The notes below the pieces were generated by a model. The model did no database searches and was not told the DNA's origin. It saw only the letters and a program-made list of their open reading frames with translations. This document shows, one piece after another, positions 1 through 64,000 of a stretch of DNA of 64,000 nucleotides. The first letter of the stretch is position 1; the number at the start of each line of letters is the position of its first letter. The stretch lies in contig NC_057764.1 in the NCBI RefSeq assembly GCF_010389155.1, positions 16,182,001 to 16,246,000 on the forward strand, in the 5' to 3' direction. Source of the DNA: Erigeron canadensis. Lineage: Eukaryota; Streptophyta; Magnoliopsida; Asterales; Asteraceae. Position numbers and translations under genes: made by a program.

Positions 1-282
1 TGGTTGGACCATTCACCCCTCCCTCTTGGTCTTCAGTTCCCAAGTCAAGAATACCAATCAAGTCAGAGGCAGTGAACTGGAAGGTCTGATTATTCACCCT
101 CGCTTCGATGTCCAAAATTGACTTATGAAAGTCAGATAGATAACTGGGTCAGTTGTGAGAATATGTCTGACTCTTGATTGCTGTAGAAACTCAAGAATCC
201 TTGTAAATCTCCCAGCATTTGCTTGATTCACATCCAAATCAATCAAGTATTTATGATTTCTGTGAAAGTGTCTTTCAGCCAT
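1..282 (-). pseudogene. 5' part of extra 3' ORF of a minus-strand Copia element (element A)
   Basis: The product starts MAERHFHRN (ATG at 282-280) and runs off the left window edge. It matches the N-terminus of the ORF at 61672 residue for residue in places: both carry an [R/Q]SRV[R/H]H.LT..PVIYL motif followed by FW, and then a FTA[S/A][D/N]LI[G/D]IL.LGT motif. The second motif is reached here only after a frameshift near position 100-110. An upstream in-frame Met exists at 360, but homology begins at the Met at 282, which directly follows a CAG acceptor-like triplet. ORFs of this kind sit downstream of pol in some plant Copia (Sirevirus-like) elements. I recall them being labelled synaptobrevin/longin-like in composite genomes, which I cannot verify. 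The function is unknown. Confidence 0.6.
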
Positions 283-348
283 CTGCACAAAGATACAAAC
301 AACAACCAAACAAACAGTTAGCAACAACAAATGAAGTCGAACTCTAAA

Positions 349-640
349 GTTCTTAAACATTTCCTAAGCCCTTGAAACATCATGTTTCATTGGCTCTAGA
401 AATGTTATTAAGTTTAACAATCGACTAAAAATGTCAATCCTTAAGGTTCTTAAACATTTTCTAAGCCCCTAAAACTCTTAGTTTCATCGGTTCTGAAAGT
501 GTTATCCATTTTAATTATTGACAAGCACTGTCAAGGTTTAAAGTCCTTAATCACTTTCTAAGCCCCTGAAACTCTTAGCTTCATTGGCTCTGAAAATGAT
601 TATACACTTTAAACAATGACAAATACATTGAATGATAAAA
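349..640. repeat. Three ~97-bp tandem units upstream of the extra ORF
   Basis: Units begin at about 349, 446 and 540. Each contains a version of TTCTAAGCCCCTGAAACTC followed by a TTCATTGGCTCTGAAA-like stretch. They lie directly 5' (on the minus strand) of the extra ORF start. Confidence 0.75.
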
Positions 641-889
641 CTATTTTATTTTCCGTGAAATAGAAACCATTTGTTTGCATACTTTGCTAAAATAGTGTAT
701 AGTTTATCAAAACAACATGTCGAAATTAAAACTTTTAATAGTTTTTCACAAGAAGTGAGACCACTTTTCTCAAAGTCTTTTAAAAATGTGATTAAGTTTT
801 AATATCCGACAACATAAGGCACATGTCCTTTCCAAATTGACTAAGTAAAAATTTTCCTGATTTGAAAATTTTACAAGTCCTAGAATTGA
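641..889. other. AT-rich spacer, nothing recognised
   Basis: This stretch lies between the 97-bp repeats and the AACACGCA cluster. No ORF, terminal repeat or known motif was seen. Confidence 0.5.
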
Positions 890-1760
890 CAAAATCCTTA
901 TACACACACATATGGTGACAATACACACATATGGTGTCGAGTTTGACTAGTCAATGCAAGTGATGAAACACGTATATTGCCCTAAAACACGCATATGGTG
1001 ACAAACGTGCAAATGGGTATTTTTGGCAACAAGAACTCGCAAAGGGTGATGACTGGTCAACATACGTGTTTCTTGTGATGACGTCATCACAAACACGCAA
1101 AAATCTGCATGTGTTTGAATTTGAAGATCTGGGTTCACAGGAACACGCAGATGAAGAACACGCATATGGTTGTTCATCTTCTTAAAAAACGATCCAGGTT
1201 TTTGAACATTAAAACTCATGAAAATGGCATCAAAAGTTTCCTAAATGCCCGATTTACAAGTTTTAACGTTCCATTTCTTTGTCCATTTAGTGAATCTAGT
1301 CCCTTTTTAGTGATTTTATGACCAAAAATAAAAACCCTAAATCTTGACATTTGAATCCGAAAAATGAATTTAGAAATCTTGTTAATCATATACCTTGGTT
1401 CAAGAAGTTTTAATGGAAGTGTTTTTAGTAACAAAACCACATAAAAATCAAGTGTTGTGAATCAAAAATGAGTGAATATTGCTCGAGCAAGAACGCGCAA
1501 ACGGAGAAGATTTCAGGAAGAACACGCAAATGTTTTTTTAAGATAATCCTTAAATGCGTGTGATTTTCCTATTTATATCCACCCAAAACACGCAAACCCT
1601 AATCCACTAGAACGCGCAAATCCCACCCACTTGGCTTAAACACGCATATCGGCCCACTTCGCCAAACACGCATATAAGCCCACTTGGTCAAACACGCATA
1701 TCGGTCCAACTAGATAAAATGCGCATATAGAAGCCCACTTAACTACAATATGTATTAATA
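890..1760. repeat. Cluster of AACACGCA(A/T)A words in Copia spacer
   Basis: More than a dozen copies or close variants of AACACGCA followed by AAT or TAT are interspersed with unique sequence, for example near 1136, 1157, 1521, 1588, 1637, 1665 and 1690. Variants read ACACACATATGG or AACGCGCAA. The same word recurs in the LTR at 8197-9330 and in the leader of element I (34850-35240), which suggests that all three belong to one Copia group. Confidence 0.7.
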
Positions 1761-3375: not shown

Positions 3376-4272
3376 TGTTAGGACCAGTTTCGACTAAAAC
3401 TGGCCAGTCTCCAGTTGCATTTGGAGACCAAAAGATTTGTTCAGAAATATATTGACGTCTAGTTGCAATGTACAGTTAATGCAACTAAATACTTCCTCCA
3501 GTTGAGATCTGATCAGAACTGAAGACATTCCAATTGACGTTGAAGACAACAAGTGGAAGATAGAGAATGACAATGGCAGCGAAGCCCAGTTGTTATTCTA
3601 CACAGATTGAAACTGGAGAATATCAGTCTAAAGCCTTTACAATGCTTTACATTGTTTACGAGGAAGACCTTTTTGCTTTATGCAGCTTTATACAGACAAT
3701 ATCATTTGTCTATGATTAAAGTACAAAAGTGCATAAAGCAGGTTGGATAAAGTAACATATTGCATTACCTTATCAAGCATTTCAAAGGAACTCACCTAGT
3801 TTCCTTAAAGGTTGTCAACCATATCTATACGACAAAGTTGGAATCCCAATGCCAACTTTGTCCATAAATAGAGGTCTTTGCACAACAAGAATACAACTTT
3901 GCATATTCAGACTTTTGCAATATTCTTGGTGTACTTGTACAATATTTTCTCAATCGTAAAAGGGAACACTTCACAACTTTAAGTGTTTCGATTGTTAAAG
4001 AGAATTTCCAAGTATAGATCGTTTGTATTTCAGAGGTTGTTAGGATATTTACACTTATGTATTATCTTGCTAAATAAAATACATTTGAAAATTACAACTT
4101 GGTCTCACCATTTTTACTTTGTTGTATTTACTTATTGCATTCTTGTCACTTGCTAAGTAATCTAACTAAGAACTTGGTATACATTCACTGTAACTGGTCG
4201 TCTCCAGTTCAGTGTTTATATTGCAAAGAAATCTCACCATTGACATCGAGGTGTCTTCAGTTAGTACCATCA
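3376..4272 (+). repeat. 5' LTR of Copia B
   Basis: It starts TGTTAGGACC and ends near ..ACCATCA, 4 bp before the primer site. A TATA-like CATAAATAGAG lies at about 3863-3873. Its first bases form an inverted repeat at 3384-3403, with CCAGTTT and AAACTGG arms. The CCAGT/ACTGG word recurs through the first 300 bp. The right end is placed by the primer site and may be off by a few bases. Confidence 0.75.
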
Positions 4273-8196: not shown

Positions 8197-9330
8197 TGTA
8201 AGTCCCTCTGATCTTGTACTACTATCAAACCAGAGATCGACTTAAGGATATGTCGAGGTGCGGAAATTCCTCGAGATAACCTACGGTTTATATATCTACC
8301 TTTAGATGATATATATCACTATATATATATATATCTTTTACGTGATGATAAACACTATGGGAACGACTCTCCGGACGCACCTTACCAAACACGTGGTAAC
8401 TTGCAATCTACGAGCCATTTGGGAGGCCGGGTGTGTGTTTGCGGTTCGTGCACGAGATGAGTATTACCCACAAGATCAACCGTGTGCGTTCTTGGTTTTC
8501 TCTCTCTATGATTTGCTCATTTCTCTCTCTACATTCGTGTTGGAACACGCATGACACACACCCACTATTTATAGGCTAGGACTAGGAACACGCAAATGGT
8601 TATATGTGTGTTCTGAAACACACAGGCCCATGCGTGTTTCTAAGCCCAAGCCCATTAGGGTTTTGGCCAGTTTGCGTGTTTCTATGGGCATAGCATACTT
8701 TTGCTTGTTTCCACAGAATCTCTCAAACCATTTGAGAGTTCTTGAGAACAAGCATAATTTTGCTTGTTTCATAGAAACTCTCAAATGAACATTTGAGTGT
8801 TCTTACTTTGACCAAGCAAGACTTTTTGCTTGTTCCTAAGAACCCTCAAATAACACTTAGGATATGGTGAGTAAATGTCTTTACTGCTGTCAAGACATAG
8901 AACCAATATTGTACTCTGAGTTAATGTTTTTACTGCTGTCAAGACGCAGAACCGACATTAACTCAACTACTACTTTAACTGTTGTAAAGATACGCAGAAC
9001 TAGCATTAGCCTTTGACACATTTCAACTGCTGTGAATACGCAGAAACAATGTCGTCAATATTACCTATTGGAAGTGTGTATATAAGATTAATGTTCATAC
9101 TGCTGTAAATACGCAGCAACACAAATATCTTAACTTCCCTCTGGAAGTACATTAAGTTAATATCTCAACTGCTGTTAATACGCAGAAACAATATTAACTT
9201 AATGACTCTTTACATGTTATGTCTAAAACCTGCAAAATACAAATAATAAACAAACATATAAACATAAGATGGATCCCAATTGGCTACACATATCTAGAAT
9301 GCTCATGTCACTAAGAATCATGCACTAACA
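8197..9330 (-). mobile_element. Solo LTR (same family as the element I LTR), TSD AGCTG
   Basis: It runs from TGTAAGTCCCTC to GCACTAACA and is flanked by AGCTG at 8192-8196 and 9331-9335. It matches the LTR at 35312-36420, including TCGAGGTGCGGAAATTCCTC and the CTGCTGTAAATACGCAG array. Orientation is set by the primer site next to the 35312 copy. A TATA box on the minus strand (TATAAATAG, 8565-8573) fits. There is no internal region, so this is the product of LTR-LTR recombination. Confidence 0.9.
8860..9215. repeat. ~55-65-bp tandem array with CTGC..GCAG hairpins in the solo LTR
   Basis: Five to six units each contain ACTGCTGT(A/C)AA.ACGCAGAA followed by an ATTAACT(T/C)A-like stretch. CTGC and GCAG can pair across 7-9 bases. 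The same array is found in the element I LTR at about 35940-36215. Confidence 0.75.
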
Positions 9331-13942: not shown

Positions 13943-13999
13943 AGTAAAAATTTGAGAAATTAAAAAAAATTTGAAGAATTTGAAGCTGGATTTATGAAG

Positions 14000-14385
14000 A
14001 ATACCGAGCTAAGACTTCGGCAAATAGAACAAGATGTTCTTGACACAAGTAGATTTGTGAAGAATGCCGAGCTAATATCTCGGTGAACAAACTAGGTATT
14101 TTGATCAATGTCAACTTTAACTAAGTACCGAGGTTATACTTCGGCAACTAGTACAATCACTACCACATATCACCAATACTTAACCAAAGTATTCAACTTC
14201 ACGTGTTTGCCGAGATGATATCTCTGCAAACTGAACAAGTTGTTCAAACACTTAACCAAGAAATCAAAGAGGTATAAACTCAATTATTTGCCGAGTTAAG
14301 AACTCTACAAATAAAACAATTTCGCCACTCTTTCTTGTATGCTTAGACTTGCCGAGCAAGGAGCTCTGCAAAGAGAACAAATCAA
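14000..14385 (-). repeat. Six GCCGAG..CTCGGC-type units in Copia D leader
   Basis: Units begin near 14003, 14066, 14127, 14209, 14288 and 14349. The best ones read CCGAGCTAAGACTTCGG, GCCGAGCTAATATCTCGG and CCGAGGTTATACTTCGG. Later ones have lost one arm base (CTCTGC, CTCTAC). Each is followed by an A-rich AAC(A/T)A stretch. They fill the leader between primer site and gag. Confidence 0.8.
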
Positions 14386-14875
14386 AATCAACAACTTCCG
14401 CAAATACCAGAGATCACAAAACGACAAAATAGTCGATTTGCATTCGTCTTCTTCGTCCAACAACTCTTCAAATGCCAAGCTCACTGAAAATCTCCATTTT
14501 CTTCTTCAATACTGAGAATTAAAACTCCAAATTTGTACCAAATTGTTCAGAAACCAAGTGCGAACAAATCCTCAAACAAATTAAACTCTAACATCAACCA
14601 GAATACGAACCTACTGATCTATGCTTTTGCTGAGCTTAGATCAAATCTAACTTTCTGATTGAAATGAACTATAATTTCAATACTGAAATGATTATAATCA
14701 AAATCCTTGATGATCGGTGAACAAACTTTGAAGAAAAACACACTAATTTTGCTGAAATCAATCGAATAGTAATCTCGACAAAAATAGCAAGTGTATAAAC
14801 AACTCAAAAACACCAAAAATAAGAACAAATTCGGCTTCTATATTGATTTTGGATCGTTCAGATTGACTGATTTTG

Positions 14876-14887
14876 CTCTGATACCAA
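14876..14887 (-). promoter_or_regulatory. Primer binding site of Copia D
   Basis: The plus strand reads GCTCTGATACCA, the reverse complement of TGGTATCAGAGC, next to the LTR edge at 14889. Confidence 0.9.
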
Positions 14888-15332: not shown

Positions 15333-18300
15333 TGTCCAAGCTCCCTCAATTTCCGACTAGGACAACTTACTTATATTTATCTAGGTATCTATCCCTAGAG
15401 GTTTATTAAGAGAATTAACCTTCTAGATATTGAAGGCATAGTGATATTTGCCCTCTAGTTCGATGAAATACCATAGATGACGAGTTGCCTTAGAAATTCC
15501 ATAAACAAAAACTATAGGCATCCAAGAAAATCTCATAGTATAATTAGTTCTAATTGAACTTCATGAAATGTCAACGAACCAAAATTTTAATCTCAAAGAG
15601 TAAATCATAAAAAATAACTATGCAAGACTCACAAGATGAGATAACAACCAAAAGTTTCTTATGAATATCCAACAATACAAACACCAAGTTAATTAAAGTA
15701 CATTTGAACATAAAGTACAATGACCTTCTTAAAAGTGTATTTATAAAACTATGAGGTACATAAAAGTGCTTGAACAATAATAAGTATATCTATATAAGTG
15801 TAAAATAAATACAAGTTTATAAACCAAGAACTAAATAACAAGTTGTAACACAAAAATTATATATACACATATATGCATACAATCATGTCCTAAATTACAA
15901 AATAACTAGTAAATAAACCCTCATACATGAACCTATACTAAATAATACTTACACTTTAAACAACTAACTAATTTAAATAATTACACTACACACATATATA
16001 TTTATACATACACATGTATTCATACACGAATCTAGACCAAAATACAACCATATACACCCTAAAAATTCAAATTCACACAACACATACTTTGCCTAACCAA
16101 TGGGCTTCAAGCCACCACTCAACTAGACCAATTAGCACTCCCCCAACTCCTTTTCTCCCCCTCCATCACGTGGGTATCCCCCCTCCCCCTCTCATTTTCT
16201 GAGTTTTCTCTCAAACCAACACATACACATGCAACTACACTCTCTCCAACTCTCTCAAAAATTCTGCACTCCTTCTTCTTCATTTTTGGTTTCACCAAGG
16301 CAAAATGGAGCTTGAATCTAACTAATCTAATGTAATAATAAGTTCCATTGATCATCTAACAACTAGAGTCATGTATGGTGTAAGCATGGAGTTGATTTGG
16401 AGGCAACAAGTTCACGAAATCAGCCCCCAAAGAGGCTGATTGGACAGCAGTAAAAACAGGAGGAAAACATCTCCAATCTTCTTCTTTTCTTTTGATTCTT
16501 GACCATCAAAGGGTACCCAACATGTTCCTTTATTTGTTCTTCATATTTTCCTTCATTTTGTAGCTTATTTTCCCTTCTTCTCAAGCTTCTTTCAGCCATG
16601 AAACACCTCAAGAACAGCCATGGAATGGAGACCCAACAACACCCTCAATCTTGTTCTTTTCATCTTCAAAGGTTGACAACTTGAACTCTTTTGATTATCA
16701 CATTCTTTATCATTCATTTTATCACAAAATACACATAGATCTTCACATGCATGCATATTTAAAAGATTGATCTAGAAGAAATAATTATGAATGCAAGAGA
16801 TAATAATGGATTTAGGGTATGCATGATAAGATTTGAATTAGTTTAGGTCTATTTTGATTTGGGATTTGAGATGGATCTTTTGATTGATGAGTTTATGTAT
16901 ATATGAATGTTAAAATAAATGTTAATAATCTGGGATTTATGAAGTTAGTACAAGAAATAAAGATTTTATAAGAATTCAAGACAAAACTATGCATAAAAAT
17001 CACAAGAACACAGATATAAATTCATCACTTTCATCACATGATTTGTCTACAAAATATGAAATAAAATCTGGAGAAAACACTAATGAAAGATTGAGAGATG
17101 AAATAGGATGAACAAAATGTATTGGGTTTGCCTAAATAAGTATTGGGTGAAGCCATAAAGTAAAGGCATGCATTGGGCAAACAAAGTAAGCTGACAGAAT
17201 CCATCTTCTGTTTTTGAACGGGAAAACTGGGCATGTGATGGCATTTTCAAGAAAAACTATCAAATTACAAGTTGTAGAGAAATGAGTTAAGATTAACCTC
17301 CAACTGGAATTACTCAAAAATACTGAACCAAACAAAAGATATGATTTTTCTACTGAAACTGGTCAAACTGTTATTTTGTCTGAATATTTTATAAAATTTA
17401 ACAATTTTTATCTCCTAATCCATAAAGTTCCAGGAGGTCATACTTGGTGGAAAGTAATTTCAATATGTCGTGAGTTTAAAATAAAATCATGGGATTTTTC
17501 TAACAATTAGAACATCAAGAACTTTTATAAAACTTCTGATGTCGCAAGCAGTGCCCATTCGGGACAGTTTGTATTTGGATAATTTTTAAGGACACTAAAC
17601 ATCATCTAAAAATTCACCAAAAATTCACAAAAATACTAGATACATATAAGTCACTGTGTAAAAATCATGAAGGTCTAAATAATTCGGCTTGACCCAAAAT
17701 AGTAGCCAACATTTCATAAATATGTGAAGTAAAAACAGAAAATTTTGAAAGAAGCTAATCATTAGTGTAATGGGCTAAAAGATGCACTAAAGACCATAAT
17801 GGGCTAACCCGGCCCAAATACTAAACCCATAGAACCATAAATCAGTAGGCCCACTTGGCCCAACAAACCATATAGTCCAATAACCAATATAACCCATTAA
17901 GCACATAACCCAAATAAGGTTAAGCCCAATAACTAAATTAAGCCCAAGTCACTTAAAAACCCATCACATTTTGGCCCAATTGATAATGGCCCATAACACT
18001 TAAACTAATTTCATGAGATAAGTGTAATCAAAATAAAACAAAGATAATTAAGTGTGATAGACATAAGTAATTATGTTAAGCAAGCTATATATTGATATCA
18101 CAAATGCTAATTCGCGCTAAAATTGGGTACACAACAAATGATGAATAAGGATAACATAACTTAATATGACATTTCTATATGATAACCTAAGATGCCAAGT
18201 GAAACCACAAATGAAGCCAAGTTACCAAAAATCTAACAACTTATAACTACGCATGTAATTAAAGTAACCTTTTACACCATCAATCTCTACAACCAAAATG

Positions 18301-19837: not shown

Positions 19838-19838
19838 A

Positions 19839-31010: not shown

Positions 31011-31623
31011 TGATGATATACCCATACGGAGCTCCAGCTCCGTACCCGAAGCAGTTTTCATAACACGAAGTTACCTCCGTACAGGTAATAAGTACATATG
31101 CTCATAACGGAGCTTACCTCCGATTAATATCCCGGAGCTCCGAAGATAACAAATACTCAGCTCCGAGGAGATATACAAGAAAGATCGAATAATAGATCTT
31201 TCCTATAATTAATCCATTGAATATATATCGAAGCTCCGATATACTCGGACACAATTAGGTAACAAGATTACCACAAATGTCCTCATGAAGGAAACAAGAT
31301 ATTCACAAAGGAGGAAGAGATTTACCCTAATTCTCTTACCCTCCTCTCTAAGTTATTTACCCTATATATAAATAGAGGAGGAAGCCTCACGGCACATCAT
31401 CACATACGCAATAATCATAAATCCATACATTTAGTTTATTCGGCCTCCAAATAAACCTTAAACAAAACCCATAAACCCTAAGTCGGATACAAATTGACTT
31501 AGACATAAATCCATCCAGCGTAAAGCGGTCTTCGACCCTCTGACTGTAAGGGAATCGCCGATAAACACCAATAACCCCACTCACACCTCCGATTGAGCCA
31601 TAGTGCGATTATTTGATCAAACA
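31011..31623 (+). repeat. 5' LTR of Gypsy H
   Basis: It runs from TGATGATATACCC to TGATCAAACA. A TATATATAAATAG box lies at 31363-31375. The first 260 bp carry repeated GGAGCT/AGCTCC words, including ACGGAGCTCCAGCTCCGT (31026-31043), an inverted repeat with 8-bp arms. Confidence 0.8.
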
Positions 31624-31625
31624 AA

Positions 31626-31645
31626 TTGGCGCCATCTATGGGACC
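31626..31645 (+). promoter_or_regulatory. Primer region of Gypsy H
   Basis: TTGGCGCCATCTATGGGACC directly follows the LTR. GGCGCC plus a GGGA tail is the common post-LTR sequence of plant Gypsy elements of the Tat/Athila branch. Confidence 0.7.
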
Positions 31646-33325
31646 CTTTGTCCTCGAAACCGAACCTATCCACGATCAAAAGAAAAGAATTATGTCAAAC
31701 CCAGATTCCCTACCAGAGAAGCATGGATTGAAGATCGCTCGCGACTATGTTCAAGATAATGGCAAGACTTTCCCCGATGAAACCGCAAGCTCCCCTGGCA
31801 TTCAGAAGGACGATGATCCCATGCTTTCTCCCAATCAGACGCTAGATCGATTGGCGCGCCGGGAGGTGGTGGAGGAAAAAGTGATCAACGCCTGTGAGTC
31901 CCTCGATAGCTACAGATCGCTCTCGAGATCATCTATGATTATGTCGTGAGTGCGGAATCCTCACGAGATAACTAGTTTGATTAGTAAAATGGTATATCGC
32001 TAATTATCAAGTAAATAATCAGCCGTATTATGCTATATTTGTTTCTATATGGTATAGAACGAACTTAGGTGACTGGTGTACGTGTATGTCGAATGTAATA
32101 CCTTATTTTAGGGTATTCATTCGTATATATATGTTTCAGGTCGAACTGGGCTTGCTGGGCTTTGTTCTTACGAACTTAGCTGCCAGCCCATGTAACGAAG
32201 TTAATCTTCGTTTGTACCAAACGAAGTTTATCTTCGTTTGCCTCTAACGAAGATATACCTTATCTTCGTTAGATATAAGACTTAGTTATATTCCTGAGTG
32301 TTATTAAGGAATCCTAACACATATTATGTTTGTACTTGTATATCACACAACAAACATAATACATAACACATATATATAACACCAAAACATGTAATCGATC
32401 ATTACCAAAACATAAAGTCCATAATCTATCAATTACATATATAGATACGACATAAATTAACATAATGTCTCTATCTAAACGACATATCAAATCTAAGTTG
32501 CTGTTGTCACATCAACGTACATCAACAACGCCCGTCCCCAAGAAGAGAGGGACATCGGTGAAAGAGGCATGGCCTCAGGAGCAAGAGAAGGCACCGCACA
32601 AACTCTTGAGCACACAAGTCAGGATAGTCCCCAAGATCCAAGATCCGATCCGAGCACACAAACTCCTTGGGCGCAGGAACCTCCAAAAGAAAATAGGACC
32701 CAAGATCCAATCCGAGGAATCAACTCGATAAAAACGAGGGAAACAGGCTAGTGGTCGCCCAAAAAAGTCCCAGGTGAAAAAACCAAGTCTCAGGACAGAC
32801 ATGGGGATAGCTATGAAGCAGCGAAGGGTCCGGGAGTAGCTACCCGACCTATCCGACCTACCCTACTTACCCGACACACCAAGGGACCCCGGGGGGGGGG
32901 GACTATGACAATTAGTACGACATAGCCATATCAACCAATATACCCGTCGTACTATCACAGGGGGTGCTTCTACCCGAACGGGACAACGCAAGCCCAGCTC
33001 GCAGGAATGTTGCCCTTAGCCGGAGGTTACCCGGTGCAAATACAGGGATCATGGTACTACCCGTATGTGTTTGTGGCTCCACAGCACCCCCAGGTAGACT
33101 CCCCGGTTGAAACCAAGAAGGGCGGAACCACTCCAGTAAAATGGGGGCCTAAGTACAAGGGGTGATGTGTACAGTTTGCAAAGAAGCTACGCCAACATGT
33201 ACCACCGGTCAAGCTGTTAAATGCCCACGAGCTTCCCTGGCATGATGGTACCTCCGAGGCCAACACCTTCCTCCAAAAAATCGACGATGTAGCCCAGCTC
33301 GAAGGATGGAGCGACGCAGTGCTTT
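31638..33325 (+). pseudogene. gag of Gypsy H, interrupted by solo LTR L
   Basis: The open frame from 31638 (MGPFVLETEP) reaches VVEEKVINA at 31892. Beyond L and one ACGCC it continues in the same frame at 32533 (RPQEERDIGER) to a stop near 32749. After several frame breaks and a run of ten Gs (about 32889), a gag-type segment reads FAKKLRQHVPPVKL..AHELPWHDGTSEANTFLQKIDDVAQLEGWSDAV (33170-33322). This is the Gypsy gag core. It stops at the junction with Copia I. GC content is visibly higher than in the neighbours. Confidence 0.65.
31893..32527 (+). mobile_element. Solo LTR L inside Gypsy H gag, TSD ACGCC
   Basis: It runs from TGTGAGTCCCTCG to ATCAACA, with ACGCC at 31888-31892 and 32528-32532. 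Its start resembles the 8197 and 35312 LTRs (TGTAAGTCCCTC.., then TGCGGAA.TCCTC..GAGATAAC). Three inverted repeats of AACGAAG/CTTCGTT lie at 32194-32271. The gag frame is continuous across it. Strand is unassigned by primer site; plus is arbitrary. Confidence 0.88.
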
Positions 33326-35311: not shown

Positions 35312-36420
35312 TGTAAGTCCCTCGGGTCTTACCGAACCGATATTGACTTGAGGATATGTCGAGGTGCGGAAATTCCTCGAGATAACACACGGTGTTATAT
35401 CTAGCTTTTATGATATATATATATATACACTCGTATTTGGCTACTATAGTGAAACAGCTCTCCGGACGCACTTTATCAACCAACGTGATAATCTGCAGTC
35501 TATAAGCCAACCAAACCGGGTGTGTGTTTGCGGTTTGTGTGTGAGATCAAGTACTACCCACAAGATGACTATATGTTTGTTCTTATAGTTTCTCTCTCTA
35601 GGATTTGCTCGTTTCTTTATCTACACTCTTGTTAGAATACGCATACACACACCCTCTATTTATAGGCAAGTGACAAAAATTCTTAACCATTGGATTTCAG
35701 TATTCTCATGTCAAGCCCATAAGCCCATTAGGGTTTTGACCTTGTTTGAGAGTTCTTGTGTACAAGCATGCTTTTGCTTATTTCCACGGGAATTTTCAAA
35801 CTATTTGAGTGTTCTTTCCGCAAGCAACTATTTGCTCCTTCCCAAGAACTCTCAAATGACCATTTGAGTGAACTTTCCACAAGCAACTATTTGCTTGTTC
35901 CCAAGCACTCTCAAATGACACTTAGGAATATTTTTGTTAATGTGTCTACTACTGTCAAGACGCGGTAACAACATTAACTCAGATAATGTTTCTAGTGTTG
36001 TAAATAAGCATACACAACATTAGCTCAGATAGTGTTTCTACTGCTGTAAATACGCAGAAACAACAATGTGTGTATTACCTGTTGGAAGTGTACATTAAAT
36101 TAATATTTCTACTGTTGTAAATACGCAGAAACAACATTAACTTAATCCTTCATTGGAAGTATATTAAAATAATATTTCTACTGCTATAAAACGCAAAACA
36201 ATATTATCTTAATTACTCATTACATGTAATGTTTACATTCATGTCAAGAACCTGCAAAACATAAAAAATAAACAAAGACATAAACATAAAATGACCCCAA
36301 TATGATCAACAATATATGTCACGGTAATATTATCGACAAACGGTAATTACAAGATAAATTACAAGACTTGAACATATAAAATACATGACACATATAGAAT
36401 GCTCTGGTCACCAAGGAATA
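35312..36420 (-). repeat. 5' LTR of Copia I
   Basis: It starts TGTAAGTCCCTCGGG on the plus strand and matches the solo LTR 8197-9330 along its length. It has a minus-strand TATAAATAG box (about 35656-35664), TTTGAG/CTCAAA inverted words and the CTGCTGTAAATACGCAG array. The right end is close to 36420, where the Copia E LTR begins; an end at 36447 (AATAACA) is possible. Confidence 0.75.
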
Positions 36421-36949
36421 TGTAAGTGCACATCTATGTCAATAACAGTCTAGATTGTTTGGACTTATATTGTAATATGTGTTTGTCATTGTAATTGTCA
36501 TTAATGAACTTCAAATTATGCATAGAATACTAAATTAAGTTTGAGTATTGAATGTGTAATTAATTTGCTAAGTAAGAAATTCAATGTCGCAATTGCAGGG
36601 TCAATTGCGAGGTGATTTGTAGGATTACGACCCCGTAATTGCAGGGCCAATTACAAGCCAATCAACAATTACGACCTCGTAATTGTGACAGGCTGGGCTG
36701 GATTTGCAAGGTCGACTCACTGAAGCCTTTGAGAGGTTTTCCTATAAATACCAGAACCCTAACAGAGATTAGGGTCGAACATTTGTCGAATTTTCAAGCA
36801 TTCTTGTGCCGGTTAATAGGTCAAAGGTCGTTTCGCTAGACAGCAGGTGATCTAGGGGCTTTCGTTGTGAATCACCACGTTATAAAGAGGGATTCCACAC
36901 CTCTGGATAACAGGATCAAACTATTAACGATCGGCGTCAAGGGGCCTTA
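36421..36949 (+). repeat. 5' LTR of Copia E
   Basis: It starts TGTAAGTGCACATC and ends a few bases before the primer site. A CCTATAAATACC box lies at 36741-36752. Two AATTACGA..TCGTAATT words (near 36627 and 36668) lie upstream of that box. The left edge could be 36421 or 36448, and the right edge is uncertain by about 15 bp. Confidence 0.6.
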
Positions 36950-37039: not shown

Positions 37040-37345
37040 TCTTTCACGAGTTTACGACCTGAAATCCTGTTCGTGGTATATCTTGGTGTTTGTAGCCGTT
37101 GTTTGGGTGTTTTGTGGCTTTTAGGGTTTCAATTTCAAGAAAATCATTGGACCAGCATCGTTTGCGACCTCGCGGGCTCGTATTACCTTGTCCAACTCGT
37201 ATTTTCGATTTGGATAGCTAATTACGCCCTCGCCAGTTCAATTGCGACCTCGTGTTTCGTTTGCGACCTCGTGAGCTCAATTACGACCTCACCAATTCAA
37301 TTACGACCTCAAGTACTAATTGTGACCTCGTATTCTTGGACCCCG
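37040..37345 (+). repeat. TACGACCTCG word cluster in Copia E leader
   Basis: About nine copies of (T/A)(A/G)CGACCTC(G/A), near 37046, 37165, 37222, 37240, 37262, 37281, 37302 and 37323, lie between primer site and gag. Confidence 0.8.
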
Positions 37346-46789: not shown

Positions 46790-47525
46790 AGGTGAGATTA
46801 CGACCTCGTAATTGAAGATAGCAGAATACGACCTCTTAATTGGTCTATTAGGCTAAGTTTGATTACGACCTCGTAATTGGTGTGCTGGGTTGATCCAGAC
46901 CCATTCGGGTCAAGTGGGTATATAAACCAAATAATCCTAATCACGACCTCACAAATTAAATTTCAATTTTAGAGCATTACGACCCCGAAAAACCACTTTG
47001 CTACCCCGATTTTCATTCGATGCATACGATTAGATCCAAAGTTTTGAAGTGATACATTTGTGTTCATCTCGAAAAACCGAATCTAGGTATGCTATCTGAT
47101 CGTAATATAGTTATCCATGCAACAAGAAAACCAAGAAAAAGGGTTTCAAAATTTTCGAATTAGGATTCCATATTTTCTTCGATTTTTATGTTTTTTGGGT
47201 AAAAATAAGGGTTGGGGTAACTTAATCGCTTGAATACGAACGTATAGATACAATTTTTAGAAGTTTTGGTTGGGTAAATCGTGTTTTCGTTTTGGGGAAG
47301 ATGAACAATTGCGTCGACCTCGTATTTAGGGGTTTGCTAGCCCGGAAATACGACCTCGCAAACGTCAATTTATTTTGACTAGTTTGACTTTCGGAATACA
47401 AGTTGGATTTACGACCTGGACCAAATACGTGGCTAAAATGGAAATACGACCTCATATTTAGAATTTAGTTAACTGTATTTTGACCTTGAAATACGACCTC
47501 ATACAGGGATATGACCTCGTATTTT
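46790..47525 (+). repeat. TACGACCTCG word cluster upstream of the extra ORF
   Basis: About 12 copies are present, two of them full GATTACGACCTCGTAATT inverted repeats (near 46797 and 46861). The others lie near 46825, 46940, 46978, 47312, 47347, 47409, 47443, 47492 and 47512. This is the same word as in the Copia E LTR and leader. Confidence 0.85.
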
Positions 47526-47529: not shown

Positions 47530-47730
47530 TTAACAGATTTTCAAAAGTTTTATTCTTATAAAATATTTGAAAATGAGTTAATTTTTAATTTTAACTTAAT
47601 TACAGGGTTAATTTAAGTTACGTTAACAGATTTTCAAAAGTTTATCGTAATAAAAATTTGAAAATGAGTTAATGAATTGTATAACTAAATTACCGAGATA
47701 ATTTATTTATATGTTTTGATTGTAAATTAC
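47530..47730 (+). repeat. Duplicated 50-mer and ATTACCGAGATAATT units left of J
   Basis: AACAGATTTTCAAAAGTTT..TTTGAAAATGAGTTAAT occurs at about 47534-47583 and 47624-47675. ATTAC(A/C)(G/C)(G/A)G(T/A)TAATTTA-type units begin here and continue right of J (61444-61600). J's ATTAC duplication lies in this array. Confidence 0.75.
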
Positions 47731-49149
47731 TGATATGTCGTATTTTATGCTCATTTCTCATAGCTTAAAGTGGTTGATTAGTGAGGTTTACGAGTCGTTT
47801 TCGTATACAGTTGGTGCGTTTATGGTATTTGTTAGTGTTTCAGGTGGAAAACAGGTACCTAAGCGTTAATTTGAAGAAAACGAAGTTTCTGGAGCAAAAC
47901 GAGTGCTTACGGACGTTTTACGGGGCACGTAAGTGCGACGCAATGTAGTTATGCGCCGCAGTGATTATAGCCGAGGTTGAAACTGCTTCGCAGTTGAGCG
48001 AAACTGCGACGCAGTTAGGCTATATACGACAGAGTGCCAGTCAATGAAAGTCAAGTCAACAGAAAGGTCAAAGTTGAAACTGCGACGCAGTTTACCGCCG
48101 AATCTGCTAAATTTGGTCAGCATATAAATAGCTTGCAAAAATATTCCAAAAACCTATCTTTGGTATTCCAGACGATTTTGAGTCCTCTTTTTAGAGTTTT
48201 TCTCATATTTCATCAATTTAGGAGGATCTAAGGCTTTATTGGAATTATATCGTTATTCGTTTTCAATCCTTTGTATTCGGTAACAATGAATTCCTTCATT
48301 TTGATTTGTTATTTCATATTTAATATGAGTAGCTAATCGCCTTTTCATCCATCTTGATGGAGTGAGACATTATGTAGGATTGCGCAATATTTATTAATTC
48401 AAGTGATTTGATTTAACGTTTTGTCGAGATCTTAATCTATTAATTCTTTGTTATTCAATTATTGATTGCGGATAATTTGTATTCATTGCTTAGTGATGAC
48501 TAGGATTTGTGTATAAGTTATTTTGATTGCTTGGTTAGAAGCAATTGGTTCTATGACGGGTACGGTAAAGGGTAATTAATATTTGATAAGAATTAACGGG
48601 TTGATGGTTGGGTACAATCGATAGGCAAAATTGTTATCTGAAATAACCAAAACCATTGTTAAACTATAGAAGTTATAAAAAGGCGTCTCGGGGTACCGGT
48701 CCTAATAATGAAACTTGTTTATCCAAGAGAGTCGAACAAGTTGTTAACTTGACGGGTACGGGGTTGGCGATTAATTTGAGTCTCAATCATTTAATCACTA
48801 AATTCAATTTGAACTTCATCAAACGTGCAATCTCAACATTCTGTCGAGCGAAATCAAGATGGGTGACCTTTAAATTATTGTTTTCAACAACAAACTTCTC
48901 TTTCGATTAATCCTTCGGGATTATTAGCAAATTTTACTAACTACTTGCAAAGTGGCAATTCGGCCACAAAACCCCCATTTTACTTGAATCACTTAATAGT
49001 TACAATTACTTATAGAAGTCCTTGTGAACGATCTCGGCTTACCAGTTTTTACTATACTGCATGCGATCAGGTACACTGCCTGTGAGTGTGTAGTAGTCAG
49101 TCTTCCGGTAAATCGTGTTTATAAATTTAAACCTAGATTTCACACATCA
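47731..49149 (+). repeat. 5' LTR of Gypsy J
   Basis: It runs from TGATATGTCGTA to TTTCACACATCA, 1419 bp. A TATAAATA box lies at 48123-48130. ACTGCG.CGCAG words lie at about 47950-48092, just upstream of the box. It differs from the 3' LTR by substitutions and indels. Confidence 0.93.
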
Positions 49150-55223: not shown

Positions 55224-55460
55224 GTAAGTGTGGGGGGGGGTGAAACTGCGGCGCAGCTGCCACACTGCGACGCAGTCTTTGGCTTATAAGGTAATGCGAC
55301 GTAGTTTTCCCCAACTGCGAAGCAGAAAAATCCTTGACAAAATAAGGGACTGCGACGCATGTAGGATGATGCGACGCAGTTTTTGTATTGTTCAGAAAAT
55401 TCGAAAATCCAAAAAAAATATATATATATATATAATTAAAACGAAACTGCGATGCAGCTG
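55224..55460 (+). repeat. PPT-like G run followed by ACTGCGACGCAGT cluster
   Basis: AAGTGTGGGGGGGGGTGAAAC (about 55225-55245) is followed by seven to eight words: CTGCGGCGCAG, CTGCGACGCAG, TGCGACGTAG, CTGCGAAGCAG, CTGCGACGCA, TGCGACGCAG and CTGCGATGCAG. A short (TA)n run lies at 55419-55434. Confidence 0.85.
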
Positions 55461-55620: not shown

Positions 55621-55638
55621 ATGACGAGATCTGGAAAG
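55621..55638 (+). CDS. Proposed first exon of Athila-type extra ORF (MTRSGK)
   Basis: ATGACGAGATCTGGAAAG is followed at once by GTTAGT, a donor-like sequence. Six codons in phase 0 would join the ORF starting at 56088. The upstream sequence is pyrimidine-rich with CTCTCTCAAG, like a leader. This is an inference from splice-like signals and frame; no transcript data. Confidence 0.5.
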
Positions 55639-56087
55639 GTTAGTATCCTCTATTTAGCTTGTTTGTCTTGCATTATATAGATTTACTCCTGGATTTGTTG
55701 TCATGCTTGAATGAATTAGAAATTATGAATGGGTAAGGGTTTTCTTGTGTCAAGTTGTTTGATTAATGGAATTCGCGAAGAGATTGGGAGTTTTGAAGTT
55801 TTGGTGTTTAATGGTTTGAAACCTTTGTTAAAATACTCAGATTATTTTTCCAGATTTTTTTAAGAGTGCGATGCAGTGTAAGAACTGCGCCGCAGTTTGT
55901 TTGTCTAAGAGTGCGACGCAGTTACCAAACTGCGCCGCAGTTATTGATTTTGAGGTTCAGACTGCTTCGCAGTCCATCAAGACTGCGTCGCAGTCTGACC
56001 TTGTGCAGGCCTGACCCCCTTATGGAGCATATATGGTGGATAATATTTTGGGGTTTTAAAATTTTGATGTTTACCGTCTTTTTGCAG
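55639..56087 (+). other. Proposed intron with ACTGCG.CGCAGT words
   Basis: GTTAGTATCC..CTTTTTGCAG, 449 bp, T-rich. Positions 55865-56003 hold six to seven words, including CTGCGCCGCAG twice, CTGCTTCGCAG and CTGCGTCGCAG. Translating this part only gives a shadow frame. Confidence 0.5.
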
Positions 56088-57745
56088 GCCCCCGCTACTA
56101 ATAGACGAAACCCGAGACGCGCAGCTTCTTCTCACACAGGTGAGGAATCTTCGGGAGCAGCTCCAGCTGTTGTGGCACCAGTTCCCGCTCTATCTAAACA
56201 CCAATGGCTCACTTGGCCAAGAGCTTCACAGGAACAGAAGGCTGCTTACAATGAGCGGTTGGAAAAATTCCTTCACAAGGACATCGAAAAGCCCAGGTAT
56301 CTCCCTGATGATATGCTTGACATGTTGGTTATAAGAAGGGACATTGAGGGATTTCTGAGGCTGGTAGGTATGGAAAATGATGAGAATGGTAACCCTGTTG
56401 ACCAAGAATTTCGAATGTGGATAGACGTTTTTGGAAATAGGGAAATGGTTTGTAAGGAATGGTGCTTGGAAAAGTGAAAAACATTTTTGATGAGAAATGC
56501 ATACATTTTCGTTGTGGGGGGAGAGATCGATCTTTAACCATAGTTGAATTTGGAATTGCTACCGGGATGTACACTAGGGATTTGGTAGATAATAACCAGT
56601 TGTTTAGGAAAGTTTTGAGGATGGGAGCTCGTACCGGGTTGGGATTCCCGGATGGTAGTCAGAAGTCGTACTACGCACAGATTTCTGGGGAGACTTGGAG
56701 TTTTAAGTCGAGGGTGAACTCTATTAAGTCACCTGTTTTGAGGTTGTTTTTAAAGATGATTACATACTTGGTTGTCCAGCGGGACAAGGTGTATTTAGAG
56801 GATATGTGGTTGTTGAGGCTTTTTCATGAGGGTGTCCCGTATAGATTAGCTTGTGCCCCTTATGTGGTGGCAAAGCATATGGGCACCCAAGGCATGAGGG
56901 ATATGAAGCTTGTTTGTGGCCATTATGTTACAAGATTGGTGAAATTCTTTGGTTGTGAAGGGGATCGAGTAAACATGGTGTTTAACTTGAATTGGAAGCC
57001 TATGAAACCGTTTGAGTATCCGGATTTGAAGCGGTTTGGGTTACTTAAGCCTCAAACCAATAGAGGTTTTTACTCTTTGATTGATTTTGGTGATGCCGCC
57101 CCTGAGGGCGAGGAAGGTGATGATAGTGAAGATACTGATGAAGAGATGGAGGAGGCAGCGGAGGAAGAACTGGTACGACGCCCTAAGCGTCGTGCTACTT
57201 CTACTGCGGGAGCTTCTTCTTCTTCTTCTGCTATTCCCGCAGGTTTTGATTTTACCTCTCTTCAGTCTGTTGTTGATAGGATGTTCGAGTCTCAGCAGTC
57301 ATTTCACACCCGCATGGATAGTTTAAGAGAGCAAGTTGGGGGAGATATGACTATGATGGGTTCTGGGCTTGGGAGAGTGGTATATGACTCGCGCCGTTAC
57401 CAGCCCATGTGGGAGGCACAGCTGAGAGGGCAAGATTTTAGCCCACCCGCTGATCTTCCCGATTACCGTCCACCCGCCATGTTTATCCCGCATCAGAGAG
57501 TCGGTGGAGGTTTTTATTTTCCTCCCGAGCATATGGTCGAGGAGCCTCCCCGTCACGATCCAGGGGCACTGGGACCGGATATGCCGGTCCGATTTGGTTC
57601 TTATACAGGTACTTATGCTGGCATGGACGTGACCCAGGCAGGAGCTACTGAGCAGACTTATGCAGAACAGGTGGTTGGTTCTTTTTTTGATTATGGTAAC
57701 CTTCCTGGTTACCAACATTATCCACCTCATCCTCCACCACAGTGA
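56088..57745 (+). pseudogene. Athila ORF1-like (env-position) protein of Gypsy J
   Basis: The segment reads APATNRRNPRRAASSHTGEE, a basic and serine-rich start, then RRDIEGFLRLVGMENDENG. After a frameshift near 56470 it continues with FRCGGRDRSLTIVEFGIATGMYTRDLVD, LFHEGVPYRLACAPYVV and an acidic block DDSEDTDEEMEEAAEEE. A coiled-coil-like part (SLQSVVDRMFESQQSFHTRMDSLREQVG) and a proline/tyrosine-rich tail follow. This matches the family known as Arabidopsis retrotransposon ORF-1 (ATHILA), found between pol and the 3' LTR of Athila elements. Its role is unknown; no signal peptide or membrane segment is seen. Confidence 0.8.
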
Positions 57746-59979: not shown

Positions 59980-61443
59980 TGATATGTCGTATTTTCTGCC
60001 CATTTCCCATAGCTTAAAGTGGTTGATTAGTGAGGTTTACGAGTCGTTTTCGTATACAGTTGGTGCGTTCATGGTATTTGTCAGTATTTCAGGTGGAAAA
60101 CAGGTACCTAAGCGATAATTTAAAGAAAACGAAGTTTCTGGAGCAAAACGAGTGCTTACGGACGTTTTACGGGGCACGTAAGTGAAGATTAGAAGAGAGT
60201 CAAAGCTGGTCAAGGTGGTCAATGCAAGTCAACATGAAACTGCGACTCAGTGTAGTTATGCGCCGCAGTGATTATAGCCAAGGTTGAAACTACTTCACAG
60301 TTGAGCGAAACTATGACGCAGTTAGGCTATATACGACAGAGTGCCAGTCAATGAAAGTCAAGTCAACAGAAAGGTCAAAGTTGAAACTACGACGCAGTTT
60401 GGGACTGCGACGCAGTTTACCGCCGAATCTGCTAAATTTGGTCAGCATATCTATAGCTTGCAAAAACATTCCAAAAACCTATCTTTGATATTCCAGACGA
60501 TTTTGAGTCCTCTTTTTAGGGTTTTTCTCATATTTCATCAATTTGGGAGGATCTAAGGCTTTATTCGAATTATATCGTTATTCGCTTTCAATCCTTTGTA
60601 TTCGGTAACAATGAATTCCTTCATTTTGATTTGTTATTTCATATTTAATATGAGTGGCTAATCGCCTTTTCATCCATCTTGATGGAGTGAGACATTATGT
60701 AGGGATTGCACAATATTTATTAATTCAAGTAATTTGATTTAACGTTTTGTCATGATCTTAATCTATTAATTATTTGTTATTCAATTATTGATTGCGGATA
60801 ATTTGTATTCATTGCTTAGTGACGACTAGGATTTGGGTATAAGTTATTTTGATTGCTTGGTTAGAAGCAATTGGTTCTATGACGGGTACGGTAAAGGGTA
60901 ATTAATATTTGATAAGAATTAACGGGTTGATGGTTGGGTACAATCGATAGGCAAAATTGTTATCTGAAATGACCAAAACCATTGTTAAACTAGAGAAGTT
61001 ATAAAAAGTCTTAATAATGAAACTAGTTTATACAAGAGAGTCGAACAAGTTGTTAACTTGACGGGTACGGGGTTGGCGATTAATTTGAGTCTCTGTCATT
61101 TAATCACTAAATTGAATTTGAACTTCATCAAACGTGCAATCTCAACATTCTGTCGAGCGAAATCATGATGGGTGACCTTTAAATTATTGTTTTCAACAAC
61201 AAACTTCTCTTTCGATTAATCCTCCGGGATTATTAACAAATTTTACTAACTACTTGCAAAGTGGCAATTCGGCCACAAAACCCCCATTTTACTTGAATCA
61301 CTTAATAGTTACAATTACTTATAGAAGTCCTTGTGAACGATCTCGGCTTACCAGTTTTTACTATACTGCATGCTTGTGAGTGTGTAGTAGTCAGTCTTCC
61401 AGTAAATCGTGTTTATAAATTTAAAGCTAGATTTCACACATCA
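59980..61443 (+). repeat. 3' LTR of Gypsy J
   Basis: It runs from TGATATGTCGTA to TTTCACACATCA, 1464 bp. Compared with the 5' copy it has an extra ~65 bp around 60184-60250, lacks about 20 bp near 61012 and about 15 bp near 61374, and has ATATCTATAG (60447-60456) where the 5' LTR has its TATAAATAG box. Several CGCAGT words are decayed (ACTATGACGCAGT, ACTACTTCACAGT). Confidence 0.93.
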
Positions 61444-61610
61444 ATTACCGAGATAATTTATAATTGGTTAACTTAATTACTGAGATAATTATAGTTAATG
61501 ATATTAACAAGAATTGCAGAGATAATTTATGTTAATTGTATTTATAAGTATAAATGATAGGGATAATTTATATGTTTGACTAGATTACCAAGATAATTCT
61601 AGTTGTGTAT
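61444..61610 (+). repeat. ATTACCGAGATAATTTAT units right of J
   Basis: Units near 61444, 61475, 61512, 61551 and 61584, about 31-39 bp apart, continue the array seen left of J. They end about 60 bp before the extra ORF. Confidence 0.8.
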
Positions 61611-61671
61611 ATTATGCGTGTGAATTTTTATGTCGATTTAAGAAATTAATGGCTTGTTATTGATTACAGAA

Positions 61672-63676
61672 ATGGCAAGAAATTTCATTGGTGCGCATAA
61701 CTACGTGATGAACTTCGATGATGGTCAGGAAAGCACAGAATATTACCACGAGATATTTGCCTTCTTCCGAAGATCGAGAGTTCATCATGCGCTTACTCAT
61801 TCGCCCGTTATATATCTCAAGTATTTGAGAGATTTTTGGGCTAATGCTAATGTAGTTCGTGCTGGAGACGAATACATTTTTCACACTACGATTGCCGGGC
61901 AGCAGATATAGTTCACCGCTGCTAATCTCATTGACATACTTCGTTTAGGCACAGTTGAGTAGGAAGGTGGTGCTACAGGTCTCACCAGATTCCGACATGA
62001 GTTAATTCAGGGTGCTTTCCGGATGATGGGGTTTGCAGGTGACTTGGCCAGTAGAACGTTGTTCAAGAAGGGTTTCTACGACAGGTGGGGGTTTCTCGCT
62101 CATGTGATTAATGTTGGGCTGAGTAATAAGAAGTCTGGTTTCGATACTTTGAACCAGGAAGCCCAAGCACAGATTGTTGCCTTAGTTTTCAATAAGCCAT
62201 ATAGCTTCTCGAAGTTCTTCTTCGAAGAGATGAGAAAACAGATCAGGGCCACGGGCACGAGGAGATTTTTGATGTATCCTCGACTTGTGATGATGATAAT
62301 TAATGCTAGACTTCCAAATCTACCTGTTGTAAGGGAAGTGGAGCATGTAAGTTCGATCATTCGCCGAGGGTATGATGAGTTTGTATCTCGATATCCTAAT
62401 GACCCAAATGCACAAGATGTTGCATTATTCGGTGCGATTATCAACGCCAATTATGTAGCACAGCTGATGGGGTCATTTCAGCATATGTAGGGCCTCAGCC
62501 AGAAGATGGTGAAGTTGCAGGGAATGTTGAGATTCCAGAGCAGCTGCATAATGTGGTTGTTGAAGGAGATGTGCCGGTTGAGCCTGTTTTTTCTTGTGCA
62601 AGCTGCAAATGATGTGATTGACTTAGCTGGAGCCAATCCAGAAATCGTGGATGATTTGCTGGAACAAATGGGCGATCCAAAGGGGGATATTGCTCAAGTG
62701 GAAAGGTACAACGCCAATGAGGATGATCTAGTGGATGTGAATCAGAACCAGCTGCAGTTCTGAAGCAGCTAGAGCTAGTGGTTTAGGTTCTGGTGAAGCT
62801 AGTGGATCTGGAGTTAGTCAGGCTAGAGGGTCAGGTGGTGTTGATGTGGGTAAAGGAAAGGCTGTTGCTGATGTTCAAACAGACAAAGAGCCTTCTATGC
62901 ATTCTGGTGATGATTCCAGCAGTGATGGTGATGAGGATCCTTACAGATCACATGAATTCATCAGAGTTGGTTCTAGAATGGTTCCTAGACCTACTGAAGC
63001 CGCTCAGCGAAGAAGAAGAAGAACAAGAGAAGATGATGATGCAGATTGGGAGCCAGAGCAGCGCGTACCTAAAAGAAGAACTCTTGTCAGGGAACACGAA
63101 TCATCTGCTGTTGCTGGTGTCTCCCAAAGTGCTCCAAGGGTTGTTATACCAGAAACAAGACAACCACAGGCAACGGAAGAAGCTACTCAAGATGTTGCTA
63201 GTCTGTAGAGACGACTGTCTGAGCAACAAGAGCAACATGACAGAGACATGTCAGAAATGGGGAGCTTAGTCCATCAATTGTCTGAGAATCTTAAGAATGA
63301 AGCTGCCAAGAATGTAGAGCCTACTGATAAGCTCAACAAGGCAGGGGTTGTGGTGTCGGGTATACACAACAAGTATTTGGATCTAGATGAGAAGGTTGTC
63401 AGGATGGAAGATGCACTGAAGAATGGCATTAAAATTGCTGAAGACAAATTGCATGAGTTCATCGACAACTATCTCAAGGTTAGAGCTGAGAGAGACAGTT
63501 TGGGTTGCCGAGGTGATGAGCTAGCCAAAGTTGGGCATGATGATGATCAAAATGATGATCCCGATGCTGCTAGAGCTACTCAAGAGCTTGGAGGAGGTTT
63601 GTTTTTCAGAACAGAGACTCAAGGAGAGTCTAGCCAGGCTGGTGGTGCTGGCAAGGCTACCTCAGAAGCTCCATAG
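61672..63676 (+). pseudogene. Extra 3' ORF of Copia E (env-position protein)
   Basis: The ATG at 61672 opens MARNFIGAHNYVMNF, right after an acceptor-like TTGATTACAG. The N-terminal part (SRVHHALTHSPVIYLKYLRDFW) matches the element A ORF. In-frame TAGs at about 61909 and 61960 interrupt it. A 155-codon open stretch (62023-62490) holds GFYDRWGFLAHVINVGLSNK and FNKPYSFSKFFFEEMRKQIR. Frame changes near 62480, 62600 and 62770 lead to a Ser/Asp/Arg-rich segment with QRRRRRTRED and a C-terminal coiled-coil-like part (NKYLDLDEKVVRMEDALKNG). Such ORFs are labelled longin-like in some plant annotations; I see no proof of that fold. Function unknown. Confidence 0.65.
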
Positions 63677-63693
63677 ACTCAAGAACAAGTTAT

Positions 63694-64000
63694 TGTAACA
63701 ACCCTCAATTTCCGACTAGGATAATATACGTGGACCTATCTAGGCCTTTAACCCTAGAAGTTTATTAAGAGAATTGACCTTTTAGGCATTAGGACATAGT
63801 GATATTTGCCCTATAGTTCATTAGAAGCCAAAAGGAAGCCAGTTGCCTTAGAAATGCCTTAAACAATAACTATAATCATTCAAGACAATCTCAAGCTATA
63901 TTTAAGTTCTAATTGAACTTGATGAAATGTCAATGAACCAAAAAGTTTTATTCAAGAAGTTAAGAGTACATAAATAATTATATAAGCTTTATAAGTTGTG
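63694..64000 (+). mobile_element. Start of a second copy of the 4.5-kb LTR family
   Basis: TGTAACAACCCTCAATTTCCGACTAGG and the following 300 bp match 15333-15640 with substitutions and small indels, in the same orientation. It begins 18 bp after the stop of the extra ORF and continues beyond the window. Confidence 0.8.

Follow-up and report, generated by a model that had tools for sequence, protein, structure and literature searches.

The 64-kb window analysed here, by which we mean the whole stretch of Erigeron canadensis DNA under study (G000:C4:16182001-16246000, from a genome of 426 Mb), consists largely of nested long terminal repeat (LTR) retrotransposons. Two of these, a SIRE-like Copia element (G) and an Athila-like Gypsy element (H), unequivocally represent families that carry a reiterated inverted-repeat (IR) word of their own, and perfect IR words are reiterated far above shuffles only in these two elements of the window. 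Both elements place words in two settings, the LTR stretch upstream of a TATA-like box and the surroundings of the start of an extra 3' gene, and in the Athila-like group the two arms of the word change together from family to family. The words are most likely putative sites for a symmetric, family-specific DNA-binding factor at the LTR promoters, a reading that we hold with about even confidence. The family letters were mapped to places in this analysis, as those of an initial annotation of the window had come without coordinates.

Reiterated palindromic words in G and H

The word of G is AATTACGACCTCGTAATT and that of H is AACTGCGACGCAGTT. The words and the features around them are as follows.

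36577..36684, forward strand: G words of the LTR, with TATAAATA downstream at 36743
37220..37335, forward strand: G words in the leader, about 20 bp apart, the right arm often broken
46796..46992, forward strand: G internal words, which surround a second TATATAAA (46919) and precede the extra open reading frame (ORF)
47310..47524, forward strand: G words in a proposed intron before the extra ORF; this intron is the insertion site of H
47731..49149, forward strand: H 5' LTR, with words at 47931, 47949, 47981, 48002 and 48078 and TATAAATA at 48123; LTR pair aligned, boundaries by eye
55244..55459, forward strand: H internal array of seven words, between the integrase and the extra gene
55621..55638, forward strand: proposed first exon of the H extra gene, six codons (MTRSGK) and then GT; by eye
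55639..56087, forward strand: H extra gene, proposed intron, holding six words at 55864-55995; GT..AG by eye
56088..57742, forward strand: H extra ORF, frame broken near 56460, open over 56456-57742; no Pfam match
59980..61443, forward strand: H 3' LTR, with five words at 60238, 60288, 60309, 60385 and 60403
61674..63676, forward strand: G extra ORF, stop-interrupted, its pieces searched apart; no Pfam match, five homologues

The initial annotation had placed such words near TATA boxes, in leaders, in a proposed intron and upstream of extra ORFs, and all of these settings are indeed occupied, the leader in G and the others in both G and H. Its further claim, that a Copia and an Athila-like Gypsy share one design, is borne out by the agreement between the two word layouts.

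Pfam places Copia domains of G at 37.3-42.0 kb, with a match to RVT_2, and Gypsy domains of H at 49.3-55.0 kb, where the order is Gypsy-like, RVT_1 (52.6-53.1 kb) preceding rve (54.2-54.4 kb). An extra sense ORF lies between pol and the 3' LTR of H, as expected of an Athila element. The sequence TTGGCGCCGCTGCCGGGGAC follows the H 5' LTR (by eye) and is a candidate primer site of the Athila lineage. H is nested within G and is bounded by a 5-bp target duplication, ATTAC, at 47726-47730 and 61444-61448 (by eye). The 3' LTR of G lies outside the window. Sireviruses with repeated motifs have multiple polypurine tracts before that LTR, and in G the sequence GAGGGGGAG, near 44.99 and 46.31 kb, is a candidate for such tracts (by eye). 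In its non-coding linker (45385-45980) G holds minisatellite-like CTTAGACATAGA repeats in about ten copies.

When copies of the full word in its own element were counted against those elsewhere inside the window, the H word gave 21 own copies and one elsewhere, and the G word 12 and none. The words are 0.68 alike in G, against 0.25 and 0.28 for their 14-bp flanks, and 0.74 alike in H, against 0.28 and 0.26. In G, the LTR-plus-leader and internal stretches are collinear over about 770 bp with a score of 139, which was reached by one of 300 shuffles that kept the words and scrambled the spacers. A genome search with the extra ORF of G scored 150 of 1746 candidates. Three relatives of G were retrieved at the spacing predicted relative to the ORF, and of these L092 and L093 carry three words and L094 none; TATATAAACC is present in L092 and not in L093.

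The five words of the H 5' LTR sit in its U3 part and shortly precede TATAAATA (48123). The words of H form doublets with a distance of 18-21 bp, and their variants follow the same order in the LTR and in the intron. The intervening spacers are not detectably homologous, since word-keeping shuffles did as well in 25 of 300 cases for the LTR against the intron and in 220 of 300 for the upstream array. A TTC-centred word occurs at 47981 and 55960. The open piece of the H extra ORF (56456-57742) has three homologues at 44-61% identity, all of them JGI records and one on an 11.5-kb contig. Comparing the two LTRs of H, the 5' copy is without about 50 bp and one word found in the 3' copy (47931-48092 vs 60184-60420); the gap falls between two adjacent words, as if copies had recombined.

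Mutation alone might produce such a pattern, with template switching or conversion multiplying and homogenising the words, quasi-palindrome correction matching their arms, and no function involved. The missing word, with its breakpoint between neighbours, favours this explanation, as does the fact that the words have changed more than the rest between the H LTRs (6/75 vs 39/1307, p=0.03). It fits poorly with H words that are alike even though their spacers are not detectably homologous, and with the placement of words at promoters in two superfamilies, and we regard it as unlikely.

Symmetric turnover between Athila-like families

Covariation of the two arms is strong between relatives of H. 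A search with its integrase scored 105 copies of 7733 candidates, and the stretch behind the integrase was examined in 50 of these, 30 at 92-100% identity and 20 at 76-84%. Words were picked by the core GCGNCGC alone, so that the flanks were free to vary. The 315 cores, found in 42 of the 50 elements, have complementary flank pairs 2 and 3 in 220 and 213 cases, against 119 and 105 expected. When the set was collapsed to 31 representatives, of which 25 have cores (172 in all), the two pairs were complementary in 111 and 112 cases against 51.6 and 52.4 expected, with shuffle maxima of 73 and 75, and the 118 unique words gave 71 and 66 against 31.9 and 35.2. Shuffles leave relatedness in, yet the change affects both sides of the word in flanks whose composition is unrelated. 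Thus, compensatory arm change between family members, which the initial annotation had called for, is seen in the Athila-like group by this core-only flank test.

Classified by word type, the 50 elements comprise 14 with GCT, eight each with ACT and AGT, five with TGT, four with GGT, and one each with TAT, CTC and CTA. Genome-wide, GCT..AGC occurs 386 times (reversed control 2) and TGT..ACA 351 times (reversed control 0), with a single GCT..ACA hybrid. Between ACT and AGT elements, integrase DNA identity reaches 95.5%, and so the words turn over quickly; only maxima are quoted for these identities, because low minima come from copies whose match starts one codon later. Such symmetric switching on one core among close relatives argues against ordinary host transcription-factor sites, for example stress-responsive ones, amplified in LTRs with a different host factor for each family. 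Host factors have been proposed for Sirevirus motifs from PLACE-database matches, according to the part of that report available (PMC2829016); for the words described here we consider them very unlikely.

The word types of the LTR and of the internal array, paired by distance and strand, agree in seven elements. ACT is found in both places in H, L034/L056, L015-L016/L057, L024-L025/L060 and L091/L068, and AGT in L030/L089 and L090/L065. Among 30 LTR copies, L030 and L036 have AGTGCGACGCACT-type words at the canonical sites where H has ACTGCGACGCAGT. In L084 a TGT match lies 6.0 kb past the integrase, the expected place of the LTR (by position only). The TTC-centred word, unlike the canonical words, retains ACT flanks in the AGT-type elements L054, L059, L062 and L066. 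Homogenisation is therefore not general, a further point against mutation alone.

Pairs of GCT words 6.9-7.9 kb apart were also observed (G000:C1:4875647/4883576, 20882011/20889869 and 35794613/35801523). They are spaced like the LTR pairs of another family, so that the GCT word may not be private to Athila.

Proposed interpretation as symmetric recognition sites

The words would be arrays of symmetric recognition sites at LTR-retrotransposon promoters, one set preceding the TATA box in U3 and another surrounding the start of the extra 3' gene. Each Athila-like family has its own palindrome on GCG-N-CGC, differing from other families in both arms, and the simplest reader would be a homodimeric DNA-binding factor that gradually shifts its specificity between families. 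Through its action on the LTR promoter and the extra gene start, such a factor would tie activity to the element's own kind. The observations behind this proposal are the reiteration and position of the words, the symmetric flank differences between families, and the sharing of one word type by LTR and array in seven elements. The protein would bind the words, presumably as a dimer, might activate the element or counter its silencing, and may be encoded by the element or co-evolve with it. The initial annotation had offered binding sites for dimeric factors and self/non-self tags as explanations; the layout shared by G and H and the arm covariation fit both, with protein binding as the inferred step. 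Core-to-core distances below 60 bp cluster at 19-22, 26-32 and 47-55, suggestively near two, three and five helical turns, although the families are related; the phasing vector has a length of 0.66 at 10.5 bp (60 hand-listed gaps from ten partly related families).

A bolder version of the proposal is that two superfamilies independently evolved a self-recognition code, in which a private symmetric word at the LTR promoter and the extra gene is read by a putative element-encoded or co-evolving dimeric protein, word and reader shifting together so as to exclude relatives. We put this forward tentatively, and think it more probably wrong than right.

Alternatively, the words may act as RNA and serve dimerisation, packaging or export, either through pairing of the words of one element in cis or through pairing of one genomic RNA with another in trans. 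With its words 18-21 nt apart, a doublet would form a 15-bp stem closed by a loop of 3-6 nt, and since any word would have to pair with any other, one palindrome would be shared throughout a family. Folding is better than in shuffles for the internal arrays of H (z -3.9 and -6.6) and likewise for the G LTR, the leader of the Copia element K and the B1 LTR (z -3.4, -2.8 and -7.1), whereas for the U3 array of H it is not (z -0.9). Sense-strand mismatches are G-U rather than A-C by 79 to 26 (17 elements vs 1), and this lean goes beyond composition (79 to 25 at pairs 2-4, vs 78 to 43 in column shuffles), but the pair next to the core is without G-U (0/172). The two words of a doublet pair with one another as well as the arms within a word do, and no better: among 150 comparisons, within- and between-word pairing scored 90 and 90 at pair 2, 98 and 103 at pair 3, and 65 and 58 at pair 4, which does not separate DNA from RNA. 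The position of words upstream of TATA boxes speaks for DNA, as does a core with a 1-nt centre that is the best-conserved part; a single word with such a centre is too tight to form a full RNA hairpin. Overall, we judge a role in RNA to be possible but doubtful.

Besides the G-U lean, a number of results count against recognition by a symmetric DNA-binding factor. Arm covariation among the words of a single element is absent (93/152 vs 96.8 expected in G, 98/126 vs 96.4 in H), so that covariation inside one element was dropped as a test, the signal lying between elements. Eight of the 50 Athila-like elements have no core (L041, L055, L069, L070, L071, L073, L075 and L085), and cores outside arrays, complementary in five, five and three cases at pairs 1-3, are too few as a control (n=7). 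Symmetry is not absolute in the ACT/AGT lineage, as the hybrid AGT..AGT occurs 126 times genome-wide, and within the AGT type the elements are mixed: words with G-C at pair 3 of the 15-mer make up 6/6 in L061, 7/11 in L062, 5/12 in L054 and 2/11 in L053. The GCT element L043 has no GCT word at the expected LTR place, and in the 30 LTR copies conservation is no higher in word columns (0.919) than in spacers (0.931). An exon similar to the first exon of the H extra gene (at most 4 mismatches in 20) is present in 25 of the 50 relatives, and a TATA box lies within 300 bp of its ATG in only two of these 25; a TATA-driven internal promoter was accordingly rejected as a general rule in relatives of H. 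Structure models of the extra ORFs are too poor to use (mean pLDDT 33 and 52). Finally, the binder of the words is a hypothetical one. Symmetric turnover nonetheless constrains any model, including one with a host factor as the reader or one in which the words work at the RNA level.

Inverted-repeat excess across the window

IRs with 8-bp arms, at most one mismatch and a loop of 0-10 were counted against dinucleotide shuffles, both in 14 regions (1000 shuffles each, 200 for a Gypsy-type LTR at 15340-19850) and in a region-free scan of 212 overlapping 600-bp windows. The scan carries more weight, because the regions were picked after reading the sequence. Its 15 top windows all overlap the word stretches of E, B1, B2, the K leader, J, A, D, G or H, one of them being the J window at 25.5 kb, a non-LTR array; ranks 16 and 17 are gag coding sequence of A. 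Among 17 control stretches (15 coding or ORF, two LTR), only A gag reached p=0.05. By region, IRs exceed shuffles in nine of the 14, all listed below as above chance with the number of shuffles as high.

K leader: 10 IRs vs 2.9 expected, 0/1000 shuffles
B1: 10 vs 3.2, 0/1000
E: 7 vs 2.0, 1/1000
G LTR and leader: 8 vs 2.6, 1/1000
H 5' LTR U3: 5 vs 1.1, 2/1000
D LTR: 6 vs 1.4, 2/1000
B2: 8 vs 3.1, 8/1000
A: 8 vs 3.1, 11/1000
H internal: 7 vs 2.5, 16/1000

No excess was found by this count in I (4 vs 2.2, 155/1000 shuffles as high), the H 3' LTR U3 (3 vs 1.3, 127/1000), the G 3' region (5 vs 3.2, 211/1000), L (2 vs 1.4, 408/1000) or the 4.5-kb Gypsy-type LTR at 15340-19850 (11 vs 14.6, 179/200). 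The expectation of IR words above shuffled controls is thus upheld for the nine regions and fails for these five.

The full-word test in the window gave seven own copies and none elsewhere for B, with three and none for a second B word (shuffled windows 1-2). The corresponding counts were three and none for L, two and one for E (shuffled 0-2), one and none for D, one and two for A, and none and four for the K word as written for the test. A private reiterated IR word is therefore shown for H, G and B and is suggested for L and E, and A, D and K are rich in IRs with no single full word repeated. The initial annotation had credited seven or more families with one private word each, which stands for H, G and B and is not shown for the others. 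A general rule that every LTR family has such a word was rejected, given the lack of IR excess in I, L and the 4.5-kb Gypsy-type LTR and of a full-word repeat in A, D and K. CpG, said to be frequent in the words, is common in those of G, H, D, E and K and absent from those of A.

Other families and neighbouring repeats

The remaining word-bearing stretches are located as follows.

3377..4270, forward strand: LTR of A (Copia), with CTCCAG/CTGGAG IRs; full word not repeated
8197..9290, reverse strand: B1 LTR, CTCAAATG..CATTTGAG, in nested IR units of about 54 nt; TATAAATA (minus) at 8566
13945..14880, reverse strand: leader of K (Copia), imperfect IRs with CTCGGCA half-sites; no repeated full word
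31012..31626, forward strand: D LTR, CGGAG/CTCCG words upstream of TATAAATA at 31367; full word not repeated
31942..32490, no strand assigned: E, solo-LTR-like, AACGAAGTTNATCTTCGTT twice plus one variant
35313..36290, reverse strand: B2 LTR, the second copy of the B family; TATAAATA (minus) at 35657

Further Copia domains were matched by Pfam in A (4.9-7.6 kb), in K (14.0-9.6 kb, minus strand) and in a fragment at 30.5 kb (minus strand), and D was typed as Gypsy by its TTGGCGCC primer site (by eye). The B units are 0.81 alike, against 0.59 and 0.60 for their flanks, which are relatively alike because the B unit is larger. The units covary among B copies (79.9% paired vs 73.0, reached in 0/500 shuffles), as compensatory change would have it, but related rows can cause such covariation. 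The non-palindromic word AAACACGCAAA is reiterated both in B and at 0.9-1.8 kb (900-1800, 8500-8700 and 34800-35100).

J was rejected as an LTR, since its tandem GGGTCAGCTTGG array (25256-26170) lies between apparent terminal inverted repeats (by eye). The array holds 22 copies of the GGGTCAGCTTGG 13-mer at up to two mismatches in one 1-kb window, and the region also contains a three-copy TCTACACAAATGTAGA repeat. Two starts of one Gypsy-type LTR, 81% alike, lie at 15343-15431 and 63702-63790, each adjoining the extra-ORF region of a Copia element (setting by eye).

Comparison with known systems

Palindromes of maize Sireviruses were reportedly the subject of a 2016 paper. In the open-access literature, covered by titles and the starts of abstracts, we found no report that palindromic words are reiterated in Athila or in any other Gypsy element; among viral contigs, patterns were matched and no relative was confirmed. 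The word layout is known for Sireviruses, and its occurrence in Athila and the symmetric turnover look new. The statements that follow refer to the parts of the cited papers that were available.

An LTR palindrome has been described in thirteen Sireviruses (Bousios et al. 2010, PMC2829016). The motifs are element-specific, are present in at least eight copies, often with CpG, and lie upstream of the TATA box; in the nine elements with an envelope-like gene, the linker holds additional copies, almost all of which precede that gene (PMC2829016). G shares this layout: its palindrome recurs in the LTR before the TATA box, and more copies precede the envelope-like ORF, as they also do in its relatives L092 and L093 of the three fetched. 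The layout was termed Sirevirus-specific, with a CGG-CCG core in all of the 13 but Tnd-1 (PMC2829016). The core of G, CGA-CC-TCG, is unlike CGG-CCG, which the published Tnd-1 also lacks, and H, with a GCG-N-CGC core, shows the layout in an Athila-like Gypsy element as well. Symmetric turnover between relatives does not feature in the available part of that account.

Retand elements have family-specific tandem repeats and extra ORFs between pol and the 3' LTR, with one ORF domain predicted to bind DNA (PMC11963269). Theirs are tandem arrays and antisense ORFs, whereas here the palindromes are dispersed, the ORF is sense and the same word recurs in the LTR.

In the anti-silencing system of VANDAL elements, family-specific motifs in non-coding DNA are read by an element-encoded VANC protein (Hosaka et al. 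2017, PMC5735166). Shared with the words described here are short motifs that are reiterated in non-coding DNA and diverge between related elements. VANDALs differ in being DNA transposons, the VANC21 motif YAGTATTAY is not described as palindromic in the part available, and the reader in G and H is hypothetical. Should family-specific factors prove to be the readers of the words, these would be an LTR-retrotransposon counterpart of the VANDAL/VANC arms race and would offer a natural specificity series (ACT, GCT, AGT, GGT and TGT on one core) inside one genome. It would then become testable what role the 'envelope-like' extra ORFs of Athila and Sirevirus elements have, and by what means control is kept separate between related elements.

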